This document shows, piece by piece, positions 3,946-35,409 of a stretch of 64,000 nt of DNA (positions within the stretch are counted from its first letter, which is position 1; each line of letters starts with the position of its first letter). Where the stretch lies: contig NZ_CANMDS010000001.1 of assembly GCF_947496725.1 (NCBI RefSeq), positions 682,001 to 746,000 on the forward strand, read 5' to 3'. The notes under the pieces were generated by a model, which searched no databases, was not told where the DNA came from, and was given only the letters and a program-made list of their open reading frames with translations. Both the position numbers and the translations under genes were made by a program. Origin of the DNA: an uncultured Dokdonia sp. (GTDB lineage Bacteria; Bacteroidota; Bacteroidia; Flavobacteriales; Flavobacteriaceae).

Positions 3946-4686
3946 CTACCCTCTTTTAAACTCACTTAAACAAATTGCCGTTGCCGTTGCTACGTTAAGA
4001 CTTTCGGTAGCTTGTGTGATGCCAAATCTAGGTATAGCAACACGCTTTGTAACAAGCTGCTCGATACCTGTAGAGATTCCGTTTGCCTCGTTACCCATTA
4101 CAATCACACCCTCTTGCGGCAGTGATGCTGCATAAATATTTTCTCCATCCATAAAGGTTCCAAAAACGGGACGGTCTTCATTAGACAAGTATGTATCAAT
4201 ATCTGTATAAATAATATCCACTCGCGTGAGCGAGCCCATTGTGGCCTGCACCACCTTAGGGTTATAACAATCTACAGTAGCCTTTGAGCACACCAGCTGC
4301 TTTATCCCAAACCAATCGCAAAGACGTATAATAGTACCCAGGTTACCAGGGTCACGTACATCATCTAGCACAACGGTAAGCCCAGACCTATCTATAGCTA
4401 TTGCTTCTGGCATTTTAAATGTTGCCACTGCCTTCTGTGCGGTTTTTAAAAAGGTGAGTTTCTTAAGCTCAGCTGGAGTTGCTTCATTTACTTTAGACTG
4501 GTCTTGGGGTGATAACGCTTTCGCGAAAGCGGAAACATCTTCCGTATGTAATTCTACAAGCTCTAGTGATGATAAAAGAAGTTCATTTACAACCTTAATA
4601 CCCTCTGCAACGAAAACACCTTCGCGCTGGCGGTACTTTTTTTGCCCTAAACTCGTTATTCGTTTGATTGTATTTTTGCTTACCAC
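3946..4686 (-). CDS. TrmH/SpoU-family RNA 2'-O-methyltransferase
   Basis: SPOUT-class RNA ribose methyltransferase. I start it at GTG 4686, giving VSKNTIKRITSLGQKKYR, the normal N-terminus of this family; the open frame upstream to 4797 overlaps tamL and is implausible. N-terminal L30-like substrate-binding domain (residues 1-95), then the SPOUT knot with VVLDDVRDPGNLGTIIR, VIVMGNEANGIS and IPRFGITQATESLNVATA, the three family motifs. A perfect copy of the iterated palindrome lies in frame at 4516-4531 and encodes AFAKA in the linker between the domains. The exact RNA target cannot be told. Confidence 0.88.
   Translation of the reverse strand: MVSKNTIKRITSLGQKKYRQREGVFVAEGIKVVNELLLSSLELVELHTEDVSAFAKALSPQDQSKVNEATPAELKKLTFLKTAQKAVATFKMPEAIAIDRSGLTVVLDDVRDPGNLGTIIRLCDWFGIKQLVCSKATVDCYNPKVVQATMGSLTRVDIIYTDIDTYLSNEDRPVFGTFMDGENIYAASLPQEGVIVMGNEANGISTGIEQLVTKRVAIPRFGITQATESLNVATATAICLSEFKRG
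4516..4531. repeat. Iterated palindrome copy 3 (perfect, inside the SpoU-family gene)
   Basis: CGCTTTCGCGAAAGCG, perfect 16-mer, translated as AFAKA in the methyltransferase interdomain linker. Confidence 0.9.
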
Positions 4687-29546: not shown

Positions 29547-30644
29547 TTAAGCTCCTTGCATCTGTGCCACTTTTTTCTGGTGGTTTATAGACTCTTGGTG
29601 CACGGCTTTAAACACACGTAAGATAAACTCCTCACTTAGGTTGTGTTGCTCTCCTTCTAGAATCATCTTCCCAAGGATCTCGTTCCAACGCTTTGTTTGT
29701 AGTATTGAGACATTATTTTCTGCCTTGAGCTCCCCTATTCCATCAGAGATTTTCATACGCTTCCCAAGGTTTTCAATAAGCTGGTGATCTATAACGTCTA
29801 TCTGAGTACGTAGTGTATTAAGTTTATTATTATACTCTACCTCTGTACCTACTTCTTTACGGATTTTTAAATCCTTCATCATCTGTACAAGCGTAGCTGG
29901 TGTGATTTGCTGTGCAGCATCACTCCAAGCGTTATCAGGATCATAGTGTGTCTCAACCATAAGACCATCATAGTTAAGATCAAGACCTGTCTGACATAAA
30001 TCGTGTATGATATCACGACGCCCTGCAATGTGTGAAGGGTCAAGAATTAATGGTAAATCTGGAAATTTATTCTGTAAATCTACAGCGATTTGCCACTCTG
30101 GATTGTTTCTGTAACGCGTCTTCTCGTATGTTGAGAATCCTCTGTGTATTACTCCAAGGTTTTTAATGTCTTGTGTGTAAAAACGCTCTACAGCTCCTAG
30201 CCACAATGCAAGGTCTGGGTTTACCGGGTTCTTGATAAGAACGGTTTTATCTGTTCCCTTAAGCGCCTCTGCAATATCTTGCACGATAAATGGAGATACC
30301 GTTGTACGTGCTCCTATCCATAAAATATCTATATCTGCCTCTAGTGCAAGATCTACGTGGTTTGCATTTGCCACCTCAGTAGTGGTAAGCATACCTGTTT
30401 CTTCTTTTGCTTTTTGAAGCCACTTAAGACCCAATGCACCTACCCCTTCAAAGTTTCCTGGGCGGGTTCTAGGCTTCCAGATACCGGCACGTAGTACCGT
30501 GGCATCTGTATCTTTAAGCTGGTGTGCAATTTTAAGCACCTGTGCTTCTGTCTCTGCGCTACAAGGTCCTGCTATCACGAGTGGGTGATCAAGGCCAAAA
30601 GCGTCTAACCAATTTCTAAGTTCTTTTTTATTTTCCATATTCAT
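29547..30644 (-). CDS. aroF: Bifunctional DAHP synthase / chorismate mutase
   Basis: Fusion of a KDPG-type 3-deoxy-7-phosphoheptulonate synthase (residues ~10-265; PCSAETEAQV, WKPRTRPGNFEG, ILDPSHIAGRR) and an AroQ-type chorismate mutase (~275-350; LNTLRTQIDVIDHQLIENLGKRM). It provides the entry step and the branch step to prephenate; this pairing in Bacteroidota fits feedback sensing through the mutase domain. 365 residues. Last gene of pheA-aminotransferase-tyrA-aroF; a palindrome copy separates it from tyrA. The aroF symbol is approximate. Confidence 0.93.
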   Translation of the reverse strand: MNMENKKELRNWLDAFGLDHPLVIAGPCSAETEAQVLKIAHQLKDTDATVLRAGIWKPRTRPGNFEGVGALGLKWLQKAKEETGMLTTTEVANANHVDLALEADIDILWIGARTTVSPFIVQDIAEALKGTDKTVLIKNPVNPDLALWLGAVERFYTQDIKNLGVIHRGFSTYEKTRYRNNPEWQIAVDLQNKFPDLPLILDPSHIAGRRDIIHDLCQTGLDLNYDGLMVETHYDPDNAWSDAAQQITPATLVQMMKDLKIRKEVGTEVEYNNKLNTLRTQIDVIDHQLIENLGKRMKISDGIGELKAENNVSILQTKRWNEILGKMILEGEQHNLSEEFILRVFKAVHQESINHQKKVAQMQGA

Positions 30645-30695: not shown

Positions 30696-31547
30696 CTATT
30701 TTATTCCGTTTAATATTTCTTTTATGTGGTTTGTATTTTCCATCTCATTGTGTACTCCTGTATAATCTTCGGCTTCCAAAAGGGATTTGAAATCATTGAG
30801 ATTTGCAATGTACTCTGTGAGTGTTTCTAATACGTTATCTCTATTTTGTTTAAAGATAGAGGTCCAGGTCACGGGATTACTTTTTGCAAGACGTACCGTA
30901 GATGCAAACCCACTGCCCGCCATATCAAAAATATCACGTTCATTCTTCTCCTTATCTATGACCGTTTTACCTAGCATAAATGCACTTATGTGTGACAGGT
31001 GGCTCATATATGCAATGTGCTTATCGTGAGAAACTGGATCCATATAACGCATACGCATTCCCATATTTTTAAAAAGGTCAAGCACTGGCTCTTGGAGCTT
31101 AAATGCAGTTTTTTCTACCTCACAAACGATGTTTGTTTTTCCCTCATAAAGACCAGTAATTGCCGCACTAGGACCAGAAAACTCGGTTCCCGCGATGGGA
31201 TGACACGCTAGAAAGTTTCGGCGTTTAGGGTGATTTGTTACAACCTCACAAATAGCTTGTTTTGTTGAGCCCATATCTATCACTACAGTATCATCATTTA
31301 TTATGTTAAGAACGTCTGGTAGCACGTGTATCGCTACATCTACTGGTATTGCTAGTACAACCAGGTCTGCTTTTGCAACATCCTCTAGTACACCCGCCTT
31401 ATCTATAAAGCCTAACGTTAGTGCTTCATCAAGATGTCCTTTACTGGCATCTATACCACACACGGTTGCTTCTGGCAACTGCGCGCGCAAATCTCGTGCA
31501 AAAGAGCCTCCTATAAGCCCTACCCCTATGATACAAATGTCTTTCAT
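30696..31547 (-). CDS. tyrA: Prephenate dehydrogenase
   Basis: Oxidises prephenate to 4-hydroxyphenylpyruvate in tyrosine synthesis. 283 residues. NAD site IIGVGLIGGSFARDL at the N-terminus, VVIDMGSTKQ, HPIAGTEFSGPSAA and the C-terminal helical SHLSHISAFMLGKT segment with catalytic His. No ACT domain. Downstream of the aminotransferase by about 75 bp. Confidence 0.94.
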   Translation of the reverse strand: MKDICIIGVGLIGGSFARDLRAQLPEATVCGIDASKGHLDEALTLGFIDKAGVLEDVAKADLVVLAIPVDVAIHVLPDVLNIINDDTVVIDMGSTKQAICEVVTNHPKRRNFLACHPIAGTEFSGPSAAITGLYEGKTNIVCEVEKTAFKLQEPVLDLFKNMGMRMRYMDPVSHDKHIAYMSHLSHISAFMLGKTVIDKEKNERDIFDMAGSGFASTVRLAKSNPVTWTSIFKQNRDNVLETLTEYIANLNDFKSLLEAEDYTGVHNEMENTNHIKEILNGIK

Positions 31548-31621: not shown

Positions 31622-32767
31622 TTACTTTACTCTCTCTATAGCTTCTTTTATTTGTTCTTCCTTTACACAGAGGCTAAAACGTATATAGCCAGCTCCCATC
31701 GTCCCAAAAATGGTTCCTGGTGTGATAAATATGTATTTCTCTAGTAGCATCTTATCTATAAATGCTTCGGCGTCTATACCTGATGGCAACTTTGCCCATA
31801 CAAAGAGTCCTACTTGGTTACTATCATAACTACACCCTAGCGTTTCTACTAGTTTAAAAACAAGAGCACGCCTTTGTGCGTAGATACCATTAATATGATC
31901 AAACCAATCTTTACCAAGACCTAGTGCTGCAATGGCTCCTTTTTGAATACCATAAAACATCCCGCTATCCATATTAGATTTTACACGTAATATGTGACCT
32001 ATATGAGTTGCACTACCTAGCACCATCCCCACGCGCCAGCCTGCCATATTATATGTTTTACTTAAACTATTAAGCTCTAGCGCTACATCCATAGCTCCCG
32101 GCACTGCAAGCAATGACTGTGGGTTGTCATTAAGTATAAAACTATATGGGTTGTCGTTTATAACAAGAATATCTTGCGCTTTTGCAAAGGCGATTAATTC
32201 TTCAAAAAAGCCATCTGGCACCTTTGTGCCTGTAGGCATATGCGGGTAGTTTACCCACATTAATTTTACTTGTGACAGGTCCTGCTTTGCCAGTTCTTTA
32301 AGGTCTGGTAACCATCCATTTCCTGCAGTTAAATCATAGGTAAGCGCTTCTGCCTCTACGAGTCGTGTTACTGCCGCATAACTAGGGTACCCAGGATTAG
32401 GAAATAACACCTTGTCTCCAGGATTTAAAAAAGCCATAGAGATATGCATAATCCCTTCTTTTGACCCCATTAATGGTAAGATCTCGGTATCTGCTTGCGC
32501 AGTGACTCCATAATTATCTTTATAAAAAGTAGCCATTGCCTCTCTTAGTGCTGGTATACCGGTATAGCTTTGGTACTGATGTGCAACACTATCGTGCAAG
32601 CCCTTGAGCATTGCAGCTACTGCTGCTGGAGGTGCTGGCATATCTGGACTGCCTATACCCATATTAATCACAGGGTGACCAGCAGCTATGAGACCACGTA
32701 CTTCTTTTAACTTTTTTGAGAAGTAGTACTCTTTAGTTTCTTGTAATCTATTTGCTGGCTTACTCAT
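31622..32767 (-). CDS. Class I aminotransferase of the aromatic operon
   Basis: PLP enzyme, 381 residues. MGIGSPDMPAP at the N-terminus, NPGYPSYAAV, NYPHMPTGTK, NDNPYSFI and the Schiff-base lysine in ELNSLSKTYNMAGWRVG. Sits between pheA (4-nt ATGA overlap) and tyrA, so the likely job is the last transamination of phenylpyruvate and hydroxyphenylpyruvate. General aspartate or LL-diaminopimelate aminotransferases share these motifs, so specificity is by context. Confidence 0.88.
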   Translation of the reverse strand: MSKPANRLQETKEYYFSKKLKEVRGLIAAGHPVINMGIGSPDMPAPPAAVAAMLKGLHDSVAHQYQSYTGIPALREAMATFYKDNYGVTAQADTEILPLMGSKEGIMHISMAFLNPGDKVLFPNPGYPSYAAVTRLVEAEALTYDLTAGNGWLPDLKELAKQDLSQVKLMWVNYPHMPTGTKVPDGFFEELIAFAKAQDILVINDNPYSFILNDNPQSLLAVPGAMDVALELNSLSKTYNMAGWRVGMVLGSATHIGHILRVKSNMDSGMFYGIQKGAIAALGLGKDWFDHINGIYAQRRALVFKLVETLGCSYDSNQVGLFVWAKLPSGIDAEAFIDKMLLEKYIFITPGTIFGTMGAGYIRFSLCVKEEQIKEAIERVK

Positions 32768-33582
32768 TGCTTCTGATTTTTATAGGCACCTAATACTTTA
32801 AAATCTTTTGCCATAAGTGAGACTAAAGTGGTTGCTTTCTTAAAACTTTCTACGCTATCAAAAGTGACATCTACAAAGAAGGCATACTCCCAAGGTTTCT
32901 CTATGATAGGCATAGATTGAATTTTTGTGAGATTCATCTTGCAATCACTTAGCACGTTAAGAATCGTTGCCAGGCTCCCACGCTTGTGGTCTGTCGTAAA
33001 TCGCAGTGATGCTTTGTTTATAACCCCTTCGGCTTCTTTTCCATTTTTATTAAGGATAAAAAAGCGAGTAGCATTCTCATCTACGGTTTGTATAGATGAC
33101 TTAATGATTGATAAATCATAGATTTCGGCCGCTGTCGTGCTTGCAATGGCGGCAATACCCGTTAGATTGCGTTCTTTTATTTCTCTTGCCACGCCCGCCG
33201 TATCTGTATCTTCTACCAGTTTTATAGATGGGTAGTCTCTAAAAAACTGTCTACATTGCAATATTGCCATAGGGTGTGACCATACTTCTTTTATGGTAGT
33301 AAGATCTTGCCCTTTGAGCGCCATTAAGTTGTGTTGTATATCTAGGTAGTACTCTCCTTCTATAGTTAGGTTATGATCATCTAGTAGGGCATAGTTAGGT
33401 AATATGGCTCCTGCTATGGTGTTTTCTATTGCCATCACGGCATCATCTACCTCACCATCTAGTAACGCATCTACCAGTCTAGGGAAAGACATACACTCCA
33501 GCACCTCCACATCTGCCCCAAAAAACTCTTGAGCTACCTTGTGGTGAAATGATCCTTGTACGCCTTGTATCGCTACTTTCAT
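32764..33582 (-). CDS. pheA: Prephenate dehydratase
   Basis: Makes phenylpyruvate from prephenate. 272 residues: catalytic domain (1-185) with VQGVQGSFHHKVAQEFF, AIENTIAGAI and the NATRFFIL tail holding the TRF motif, then an ACT regulatory domain (~195-272) for phenylalanine feedback (KRGSLATILNVLSDCKMNLTKI region, quoted in part). First gene of the operon, and preceded by the attenuator at 33650-33786. No fused chorismate mutase; that activity is supplied by aroF in the same operon. Confidence 0.95.
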   Translation of the reverse strand: MKVAIQGVQGSFHHKVAQEFFGADVEVLECMSFPRLVDALLDGEVDDAVMAIENTIAGAILPNYALLDDHNLTIEGEYYLDIQHNLMALKGQDLTTIKEVWSHPMAILQCRQFFRDYPSIKLVEDTDTAGVAREIKERNLTGIAAIASTTAAEIYDLSIIKSSIQTVDENATRFFILNKNGKEAEGVINKASLRFTTDHKRGSLATILNVLSDCKMNLTKIQSMPIIEKPWEYAFFVDVTFDSVESFKKATTLVSLMAKDFKVLGAYKNQKQ

Positions 33583-33649
33583 AATCTGTTTTCTATAGAT
33601 GATTTGTAATCACCTTTCTAAATTTTATTTTACTTGAATTGACTCCAAT

Positions 33650-33685
33650 AAAAAAGTCCTGATAAAAAATTTTATCAGGACTTTT
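33650..33685 (-). terminator. Attenuator terminator of the aromatic operon
   Basis: Minus strand AAAAGTCCTGATAAA (33685-33671) pairs with TTTATCAGGACTTTT (33666-33652), followed by T and A residues. It lies after the leader peptide and 67 bases before pheA, so it stops transcription before the operon. An upstream copy of ATCAGGA (33727-33721) can pair with the left arm TCCTGAT and prevent it. Confidence 0.85.
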
Positions 33686-33705
33686 CTAGTTTTGAGTATG
33701 TCTAA

Positions 33706-33786
33706 TTACTGCAATACCAATCCTGATCTCTTCTTAAAAAAGAAGAAATAAAAAAAGTTGTTCCAATAATAAACTTGCGTTTGCAT
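33706..33786 (-). CDS. Phe/Tyr-rich leader peptide of the pheA operon
   Basis: A 26-codon frame too short for ordinary gene calling. ATG at 33786, stop TAA at 33706. The peptide contains the run YYWNNFFYFFFF (10 aromatic residues of 12) followed by KKRSG. The aromatic codons overlap one arm of a hairpin (TCTTCTT...AAGAAGA) that competes with the antiterminator. It ends about 20 bases before the terminator arm. This is the classical layout of ribosome-mediated attenuation: starvation for Phe/Tyr stalls the ribosome, the antiterminator forms and pheA is transcribed. Candidate promoter: TTTG near 33838 with TACATTAG (33811-33804). Confidence 0.88.
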   Translation of the reverse strand: MQTQVYYWNNFFYFFFFKKRSGLVLQ

Positions 33787-33905
33787 ATTCAATTCTTAGA
33801 CTGCTAATGTAGAAAAAAAATCTAATGAGAACCGACAAACCATCTCTTTTGCGAAATAAATTTTTATAACCTCTTTTTATTACGGAATTCATAATGGTTT
33901 TGAGT

Positions 33906-35139: not shown

Positions 35140-35409
35140 ATGTATTTATCAAAAGAAGCAAAAGAAGAAATTTTCGCAAAGCACGGAAAAGGGAAAAACG
35201 ATACTGGATCTGCAGAGGGTCAAATCGCTTTATTCACGCACCGTATCACACACTTAACTGAGCACTTAAAGAAAAACCGTAAGGATTATAACACTGAGCG
35301 TTCACTAGTAATGCTGGTAGGTAAGCGTCGTTCTTTACTTGATTACTTAAAGAAAAAAGACGTACTACGTTACAGAGCTATTATTAAGGAGCTAGGTATC
35401 CGTAAATAA
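35140..35409 (+). CDS. rpsO: 30S ribosomal protein S15
   Basis: 89 residues, the standard length. MYLSKEAKEEIFAKHGKGKNDTGSAEGQIALFTHRI and the RRSLLDYLKKKD rRNA-binding helix are unmistakable (quoted in part). Precedes pnp as in many bacteria, but here a strong terminator and 450 bp separate the two, so they are not simply co-transcribed. Confidence 0.98.
   Translation: MYLSKEAKEEIFAKHGKGKNDTGSAEGQIALFTHRITHLTEHLKKNRKDYNTERSLVMLVGKRRSLLDYLKKKDVLRYRAIIKELGIRK

Follow-up and report, generated by a model that had tools for sequence, protein, structure and literature searches.

A predicted leader-peptide attenuator ahead of the phenylalanine-tyrosine operon in Dokdonia and related flavobacteria

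Introduction

In the window analysed here, a 64,000-nt stretch of DNA from an uncultured Dokdonia sp., an operon for phenylalanine and tyrosine synthesis is preceded by a very short open reading frame packed with aromatic codons and by a hairpin that runs into a T tract. What does this arrangement do, and how widely is it shared? Leader-peptide attenuation, which textbooks describe from work on enteric bacteria, is one possible answer, and Vitreschak 2004 is said to be a survey of proteobacterial attenuators. An earlier note, made from the letters of the window, had proposed such an attenuator at this locus. From a comparison of pheA loci we conclude, with high confidence, that the element before pheA is predicted to be a ribosome-mediated (leader-peptide) transcription attenuator of the Phe/Tyr operon.

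Results

The genes behind the element lie on the minus strand in the order pheA-aminotransferase-tyrA-aroF, and the earlier note's naming of them agrees with Pfam. They are pheA, a prephenate dehydratase with an ACT domain (32764-33582; PF00800, E 6.8e-56; ACT E 1.3e-05, just under its cut-off), a class I/II aminotransferase (31622-32767; PF00155, E 4.3e-55), tyrA, a prephenate dehydrogenase (30696-31547; PF02153, with NF006307 above cut-off), and a DAHP synthase fused to chorismate mutase, called aroF here (29547-30644; PF00793 and PF01817). The best NCBIfam names for the aminotransferase are LL-diaminopimelate aminotransferases, below their cut-offs. The output of the operon is Phe and Tyr, and the DAHP synthase step feeds all three aromatic amino acids. 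The nearest named record to PheA among the best 80 of 285 relatives is from a Dokdonia MAG and is 98% identical. Gene order is kept in all 74 loci whose downstream sequence reaches 2.9 kb or more; in the remaining 73 loci, where less lies downstream, an aroF match directly follows pheA in four (L120, L130, L132, L137), one (L122) has no aminotransferase match, and pheA stands alone in five shorter loci (L143-L147).

Upstream of pheA on the same strand, translation gives a 26-codon leader frame, a putative Phe/Tyr leader peptide (MQTQVYYWNNFFYFFFFKKRSGLVLQ, 33706-33786), with its ATG at 33786 and a TAA stop ending at 33706. Ten of the 12 codons of its run YYWNNFFYFFFF (33736-33771) are aromatic, including three for Tyr and one for Trp, and translation together with ribosome-masked folding marks these as the predicted stall sites. 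The frame and its codon counts are, to the base, those of the earlier note, and so are the arms behind it. Region 2 (GATCAGGATTG, 33718-33728, minus strand, with core ATCAGGA at 33727-33721) is the predicted 5' arm of an antiterminator. Region 3 (33671-33688, minus strand, core TCCTGAT at 33680-33674), recovered by folding, duplex prediction and a joint search for triples of regions, would serve both as the 3' arm of that antiterminator and as the 5' arm of a terminator whose 3' arm, region 4 in the folding (33649-33666, minus strand, core TTATCAGGA at 33665-33657), runs into the T tract. The terminator hairpin starts 17 nt 3' of the leader stop and has an 18-pair stem and a 4-nt loop (-21.9 kcal/mol, z -8.61; 0/200 shuffles as good), and the whole leader folds at -50 kcal/mol (z -6.55). 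The duplex of regions 2 and 3 is predicted at -12.5 kcal/mol, with one of 50 shuffles equally good. Both pairings draw on region 3, so antiterminator and terminator are mutually exclusive.

Promoter-like elements of the Bacteroidota type, for which the consensus is TTTG/TAnnTTTG, precede the leader on the minus strand (33804-33839): the motif scan found TTTG at 33839-33836, a 24-nt spacer, the longest in the permitted range of 17-24, and TACATTAG at 33811-33804, ending 17 nt 5' of the leader ATG. Scores of 9 or 10 out of 10 were reached by 61 of 83 distinct upstream segments against 30 of 830 mononucleotide shuffles.

Other elements of the window were recorded alongside. The 16-base palindrome CGCTTTCGCGAAAGCG is a dispersed repeat. 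Its 12 copies in the window, 11 of them perfect and one carrying a mismatch, compare with no copy in 100 shuffles and lie at positions 4516, 7364, 14134, 21083, 26369, 30675, 33907, 46044, 57150, 59024, 61513 and 63903. One copy lies about 70 nt 5' of the leader promoter elements and another between aroF and tyrA, and a similar palindrome sits between leader and pheA in two comparison loci (L008, L021). On the plus strand, Rfam matches are the S15-Flavobacteria ribosomal protein leader (RF03161, 35075-35142) ahead of the S15 gene at 35140, Flavo-1 RNA (RF01705, 19207-19288) and the DUF805b motif (RF02914, 51317-51357), the latter two above their gathering scores.

A structured leader ahead of an amino-acid operon could also be a metabolite-binding riboswitch or a T-box that happens to hold a short frame. 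We consider this extremely unlikely, given that no riboswitch or T-box appears among the Rfam matches to the window even up to E 10 (the best permissive row, PyrR, scores 28.6 bits against a threshold of 54), and that conservation between genomes lies in the aromatic codons and in three short arms, the latter differing in sequence by lineage. Phe_leader, the Rfam family of the enteric pheL RNA, is likewise absent among the window's matches, at gathering scores and up to E 10 (30 rows).

Taken by itself, one window proves little, because short frames rich in Phe and Tyr are common in AT-rich DNA: 3 of its 712 short ATG frames carry seven F/Y in ten codons. The significance comes from comparison. 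To the 18 genomes of the genus we added 80 named loci (the best 80 of 285), nearly all labelled flavobacteria, which gave 98 pheA loci. Of these, 96 had at least 400 nt upstream and were kept; L067 and L077, with 43 and 134 nt, were dropped. Ten pairs within the 96 are the same contig (L003/L019, L004/L020, L008/L021, L010/L022, L011/L026, L013/L024, L014/L027, L015/L023, L016/L030 and L017/L025). An ATG frame with at least six F/Y in ten codons is present in 96/96 loci, as against 58 of 1920 dinucleotide shuffles (3%) and none of the 96 antisense strands. Between that frame and pheA, a hairpin with a T run at -9 kcal or below occurs in 95/96 loci and in 22 of 288 shuffles; the remaining locus has a terminator hairpin of -7.5 kcal. 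The top-scoring hairpin is one other than the terminator in three loci (L036, L065, L091), and in L065 and L091 it overlaps the end of the leader. The earlier note had looked to related genomes for absence of the frame or the arms; what we find there is a frame, a terminator and a 2:3 antiterminator that are conserved and that covary.

The conserved hairpin might instead gate the pheA start codon, by itself or through the leader, with its resemblance to a terminator incidental. In some relatives it ends only 12-20 nt before pheA, as such translational control would have it, but it ends 66 nt before pheA in the window and about 219 nt before it in L016 and L030. It is also followed directly by a T run in 96/96 loci, although the search itself requires a T run, against the 22/288 shuffles at -9 kcal. 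We therefore regard translational control as very improbable and keep to transcription attenuation.

The leader peptide is conserved within genera. Among aligned codon pairs within genus-level groups in which at least one codon is aromatic, 889 are identical, 107 synonymous and 67 aromatic-to-aromatic, while 62 have lost the aromatic residue; these counts are descriptive, as the compared pairs share ancestry. Such conservation and the long aromatic run would also suit a nascent peptide that arrests the ribosome by sensing free Phe or Tyr, in place of a scarcity of charged tRNA. However, the order of residues and the flanks differ by lineage (YYNWFYFFF, RFYFYFYFF, NRFYFSNTYYFFW), whereas the run and its distance to region 2 are kept, and 67 of the differing aromatic codons exchange one aromatic residue for another. 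Arrest would moreover require read-through at high amino acid levels, the opposite of what a biosynthetic operon needs. We give nascent-chain arrest only a slim chance, and take scarcity of charged tRNA as the probable signal of the attenuator.

The alternative pairing can be followed across lineages. The pairing of regions 2 and 3 ranks among the top 2 of 50 shuffles in 83/96 loci, and a change in one core is matched in the other from lineage to lineage. The window's closest relatives have ATCAGGA/TCCTGAT; Winogradskyella, Olleya and Polaribacter have GAGAC or GAGGC/GTCTC; Leeuwenhoekiella has CGGGACC/GGTCCCG; and Flavobacterium has both GGGATTGT/ACAATCCC and AGGATTGT/ACAATCCT. With G-U allowed, the five columns of region 2 pair with their own region 3 in 63/63 distinct combinations and with that of another lineage in 65/253; with Watson-Crick pairs only, the counts are 42/63 and 14/253. 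Region 3 was picked jointly with regions 2 and 4, which leans these figures towards pairing, but the own-versus-other control uses one search for both sides. Two loci (L094, L097) had no triple, and three miscalled ones (L073, L095, L098) were left out of the covariation count. Across the 63 distinct combinations, CT in region 3 goes with AG (13) or GG (4) in region 2 and with AG (17) in region 4; TC goes with GA (33) or GG (1) in region 2 and with GA (26) or GG (8) in region 4; and CC goes with GG in both (12 and 12). This three-way covariation of regions 2, 3 and 4 is the signature that a switch would be expected to leave, and is the strongest evidence of all.

The geometry is similarly narrow. 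Region 2 starts 8-17 nt past the last aromatic codon in 87/94 loci in a free search, and 8-16 nt past it, with a mode of 10, in 91/91 when the search was limited to 5-19 nt. Placed by the size of the ribosome footprint, this is about how far the front of a ribosome would reach when its A site holds the last aromatic codon. That AT-rich intergenic DNA should by accident combine a spurious F/Y-rich frame with a constitutive terminator, as the three such frames in the window might allow, has a vanishingly small chance: conservation in 96/96 loci, covariation and narrow spacing contradict it as far as sequence allows.

To attenuation, these positions matter through what a ribosome would cover. We folded 83 distinct leaders (identical leader-terminator sequences collapsed), each ending at the terminator loop, with the ribosome placed on one codon after another, at equilibrium and not cotranscriptionally. 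L036 was left out because its terminator was miscalled, and the separate triple search found a proper triple there. With the A site on the window's YYWNNFFYFFFF codons, region 2 is unmasked in the computed folds. Over the 83 leaders, the median pairing of regions 2 and 3 is 0.78 when the A site lies on aromatic codons and 0.00 at the stop codon, and in each of the nine profiles followed codon by codon the pairing drops to zero within a few codons past the aromatic run. Both thresholds were passed by 81/83 leaders, with L085 and L089 at 0.46, and again by 81/83 with a footprint of +12 rather than +10. In some lineages the leader frame ends before region 2, and a ribosome at the stop codon still masks it (L049, L052).

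The earlier note had all four arms competing in the classical way. Regions 2, 3 and 4 are solid, but region 1 is doubtful. In the window, folding places it within the Phe codons (ATTTCTTCTT, 33740-33749, minus strand) opposite AAGAAGAGAT (33735-33726), and the resulting 1:2 hairpin overlaps the region 2 heptamer by only 2 nt. Folding frequently draws this hairpin from U-rich Phe codons against the A-rich Lys and Arg codons behind them, and it is better than 95% of shuffles in 15 of 77 distinct leaders, or in 6 of 77 for pairing of the core. The pairing of the window's own region 2 core with the leader does not beat any of 100 shuffles, and the core is occupied by the leader about 0.11 of the time in computed folds. 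In untranslated RNA at equilibrium, region 2 pairs with region 3 at a median of 0.62 and with the leader at 0.15, while some leaders do have a strong 1:2 competitor (L028 0.69, L049 0.77). With so weak a protector, the untranslated RNA would therefore often form the 2:3 pairing at equilibrium. Since region 2 without a ribosome prefers region 3 to the leader in these folds, termination in many lineages may depend on translation of the leader instead of on a protector hairpin.

In its best 12 codons, a distinct leader has on average 4.7 Phe, 2.9 Tyr and 0.8 Trp. Trp is present in 55/71 distinct leaders, against 26/157 equally F/Y-rich shuffled frames, and because of this enrichment the Trp codon is probably not accidental. 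It looks selected, in keeping with the earlier note's suggestion that it is part of a general sensing of aromatic supply. The 18-codon leaders of Flavobacterium are without Trp.

From the leader, terminator, alternative pairing, three-way covariation and spacing that are seen in the sequences, we infer leader translation, codon-specific stalling, termination and derepression as follows. Transcription would start about 10 nt 5' of the leader ATG, and a ribosome translating the leader would trail RNA polymerase. When charged tRNA-Phe, tRNA-Tyr or tRNA-Trp is scarce, the ribosome would stall in the aromatic run and leave region 2 free to pair with region 3 before region 4 is made; no terminator would form, and the operon would be transcribed. 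When amino acids are ample, the ribosome would move past the last aromatic codon and mask region 2, regions 3 and 4 would form the terminator, and transcription would end about 66 nt before pheA.

How far does the predicted leader extend? PheA was found in 69/118 genomes of the order and 102/118 of the phylum. In the order, phylum and further family searches, loci were taken from no more than the 30 best matches, which tilts the wider leader counts towards closer relatives. Leader and terminator are present in 35/49 further loci (best matches in the order and phylum), which include other families of the class and two loci assigned no more closely than to the same phylum (L134, L139). Among 20 lower-ranked loci picked by hand, four have an aromatic-run frame (L148-L151) and three of them a strong terminator near pheA (L149-L151). 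Two loci (L116, L119) have weak leaders only, with five of ten codons, and no leader was found in L122, L123, L125-L127, L128, L129, L143-L147 and L152-L167. We do not count L128 and L129 as contradictions, because pheA there directly follows two long frames, one of which, by eye, we take to be aroA, so that no leader is expected at that spot. Separately, L123 and L125-L127 are genomes of about 0.6 Mb that keep pheA-aminotransferase-tyrA without a leader, which fits the shedding of regulation on genome reduction, as one would expect. In the order of genome G199, 8 of the best 30 loci have a leader, including three with a distant PheA (L280, L282, L283), and none was found in the other 22 of the 30 sampled. 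On these sequences the predicted leader is thus widespread but patchy outside flavobacteria, and not phylum-wide.

A duplicated form appeared in two loci (L140, L142), each with two aromatic frames upstream of pheA and a terminator for each frame; the tandem loci examined were L140 with L293-L321 and L142 with L264-L266. In one family (f18), where 40/60 genomes have PheA, at least one leader with a terminator precedes pheA in 29 of the best 30 loci and two do in 19/30; in another (f22), the counts are 4/4 and 3/4. Shuffled controls gave one leader with a terminator in 5/300 (f18) and 0/40 (f22), and two in none. Within the tandem units, the 2:3 pairing beats 95% of shuffles in 31/43 and fails to in 12/43, with a median offset of 11 nt. 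Both units are rich in Phe and Tyr codons, so they do not divide the two amino acids between them.

Other biosynthetic genes of the genus have short frames of their own. A leader of the type MKNNTVHTWWW, then a terminator-like hairpin, precedes trpE in 18/18 genomes (L168-L185), and an HHHH or HHH leader, then a terminator-like hairpin, precedes hisG in all 17 genomes with a hisG match (L198-L214); these trpE and hisG leaders lie some hundreds of nt 5' of the domain that was matched, and each suits the pathway of the gene behind it. Ahead of thrA, Thr/Ile-rich short frames (for example MRTTQYTSIFLITTITIGTITPLGL) occur in 4/4 genomes, a count without a shuffle control (script indices: L256 459-537, L257 522-621, L258 557-641, L259 536-614); no terminator of -9 kcal was found before the gene in these four. 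An Ile-rich leader with a terminator before ilvD was considered as a genus trait and rejected, being present in only 2/16 loci.

Discussion

If our reading is right, the Phe/Tyr leader explains a class of tiny open reading frames and predicts a sensor of aromatic supply. More tentatively, and with the chances somewhat against the proposal as a whole, because 22 of 30 loci in one sampled order are without the leader, we suggest that many Bacteroidota may carry their own battery of leader-peptide attenuators with no sequence debt to the enteric ones: a Phe/Tyr/Trp "aromatic meter" on pheA-aminotransferase-tyrA-aroF, a WWW leader for trp, HHHH for his and Thr/Ile for thrA. On this proposal, tandem aromatic units reading the same signal would be common in two families, and many lineages would be without a strong protector and would need leader translation for turning the operon off. 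Read-through of a tandem would then be roughly the product of two probabilities, so that the switch would be steeper and leak less than a single attenuator. The other families that carry the tandem form provide a natural test of two serial attenuators versus one, and protector-free switching in many lineages would be a testable departure from the textbook model.

The earlier note held the mechanism to be known from enteric pheL, which stands, and not to be described in flavobacteria, which stands only in part: leader-peptide attenuation was mentioned in 2021 for Flavobacterium psychrophilum, of the same family (PMC9723704). The passages on it name no operon, codons, arms or covariation, and the set it refers to may well include the pheA operon. 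Leader-like sORFs have been reported in Bacteroides thetaiotaomicron, of the same phylum (PMC7366714), where the example is a hypothetical protein gene and the main text is without phenylalanine or pheA. A leader-gene distance statistic covers Bacteroidetes (PMC4833913), and the authors of a 2010 survey state that, to their knowledge, Proteobacteria and Actinobacteria were the only phyla with a demonstrated system of this kind until their own Firmicutes case (PMC2965389). Within the open-licence literature we found no paper naming a Phe/Tyr leader in Bacteroidota, and Salmonella mgtCBR was the only case of tandem attenuators.

That case resembles the tandem pheA units in having a pair of leader ORFs and a pair of serial attenuators. 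It differs in that its two units read different signals (ATP and proline) and are called "a singular example", whereas both tandem pheA units carry Phe/Tyr runs (PMC3641672). Another similar case is the uORFC-13-1 motif of Acholeplasma, which lies upstream of aroF and is like our leader in being a candidate Phe-codon uORF beside a terminator before an aromatic-pathway gene; it is unlike ours in its 24 representatives from Acholeplasma and environmental sequences, its requirement of at least one Phe codon, and its other gene context (PMC8632094).

Escherichia coli offers two further comparisons. The frequent 2:3 formation predicted for the untranslated flavobacterial leader differs from the E. 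coli trp model. E. coli pheL-pheA is alike in having a leader peptide (15 residues) and a terminator before pheA, and the same analysis steps place its antiterminator region 2 at 6 nt past the last Phe codon. There, however, Phe is the sole aromatic residue of the leader and pheA is the gene behind it, and tyrA and aroF, which come after pheA, are encoded on the other strand, whereas the leaders described here have Phe, Tyr and often Trp codons before a four-gene operon for Phe and Tyr, and Rfam gives the window's leader no connection to pheL. The attenuation mechanism is thus already known; what is new is the predicted mixed aromatic leader on a Phe and Tyr operon, conserved in the sampled flavobacteria, present in other families too, and found there in a duplicated form.
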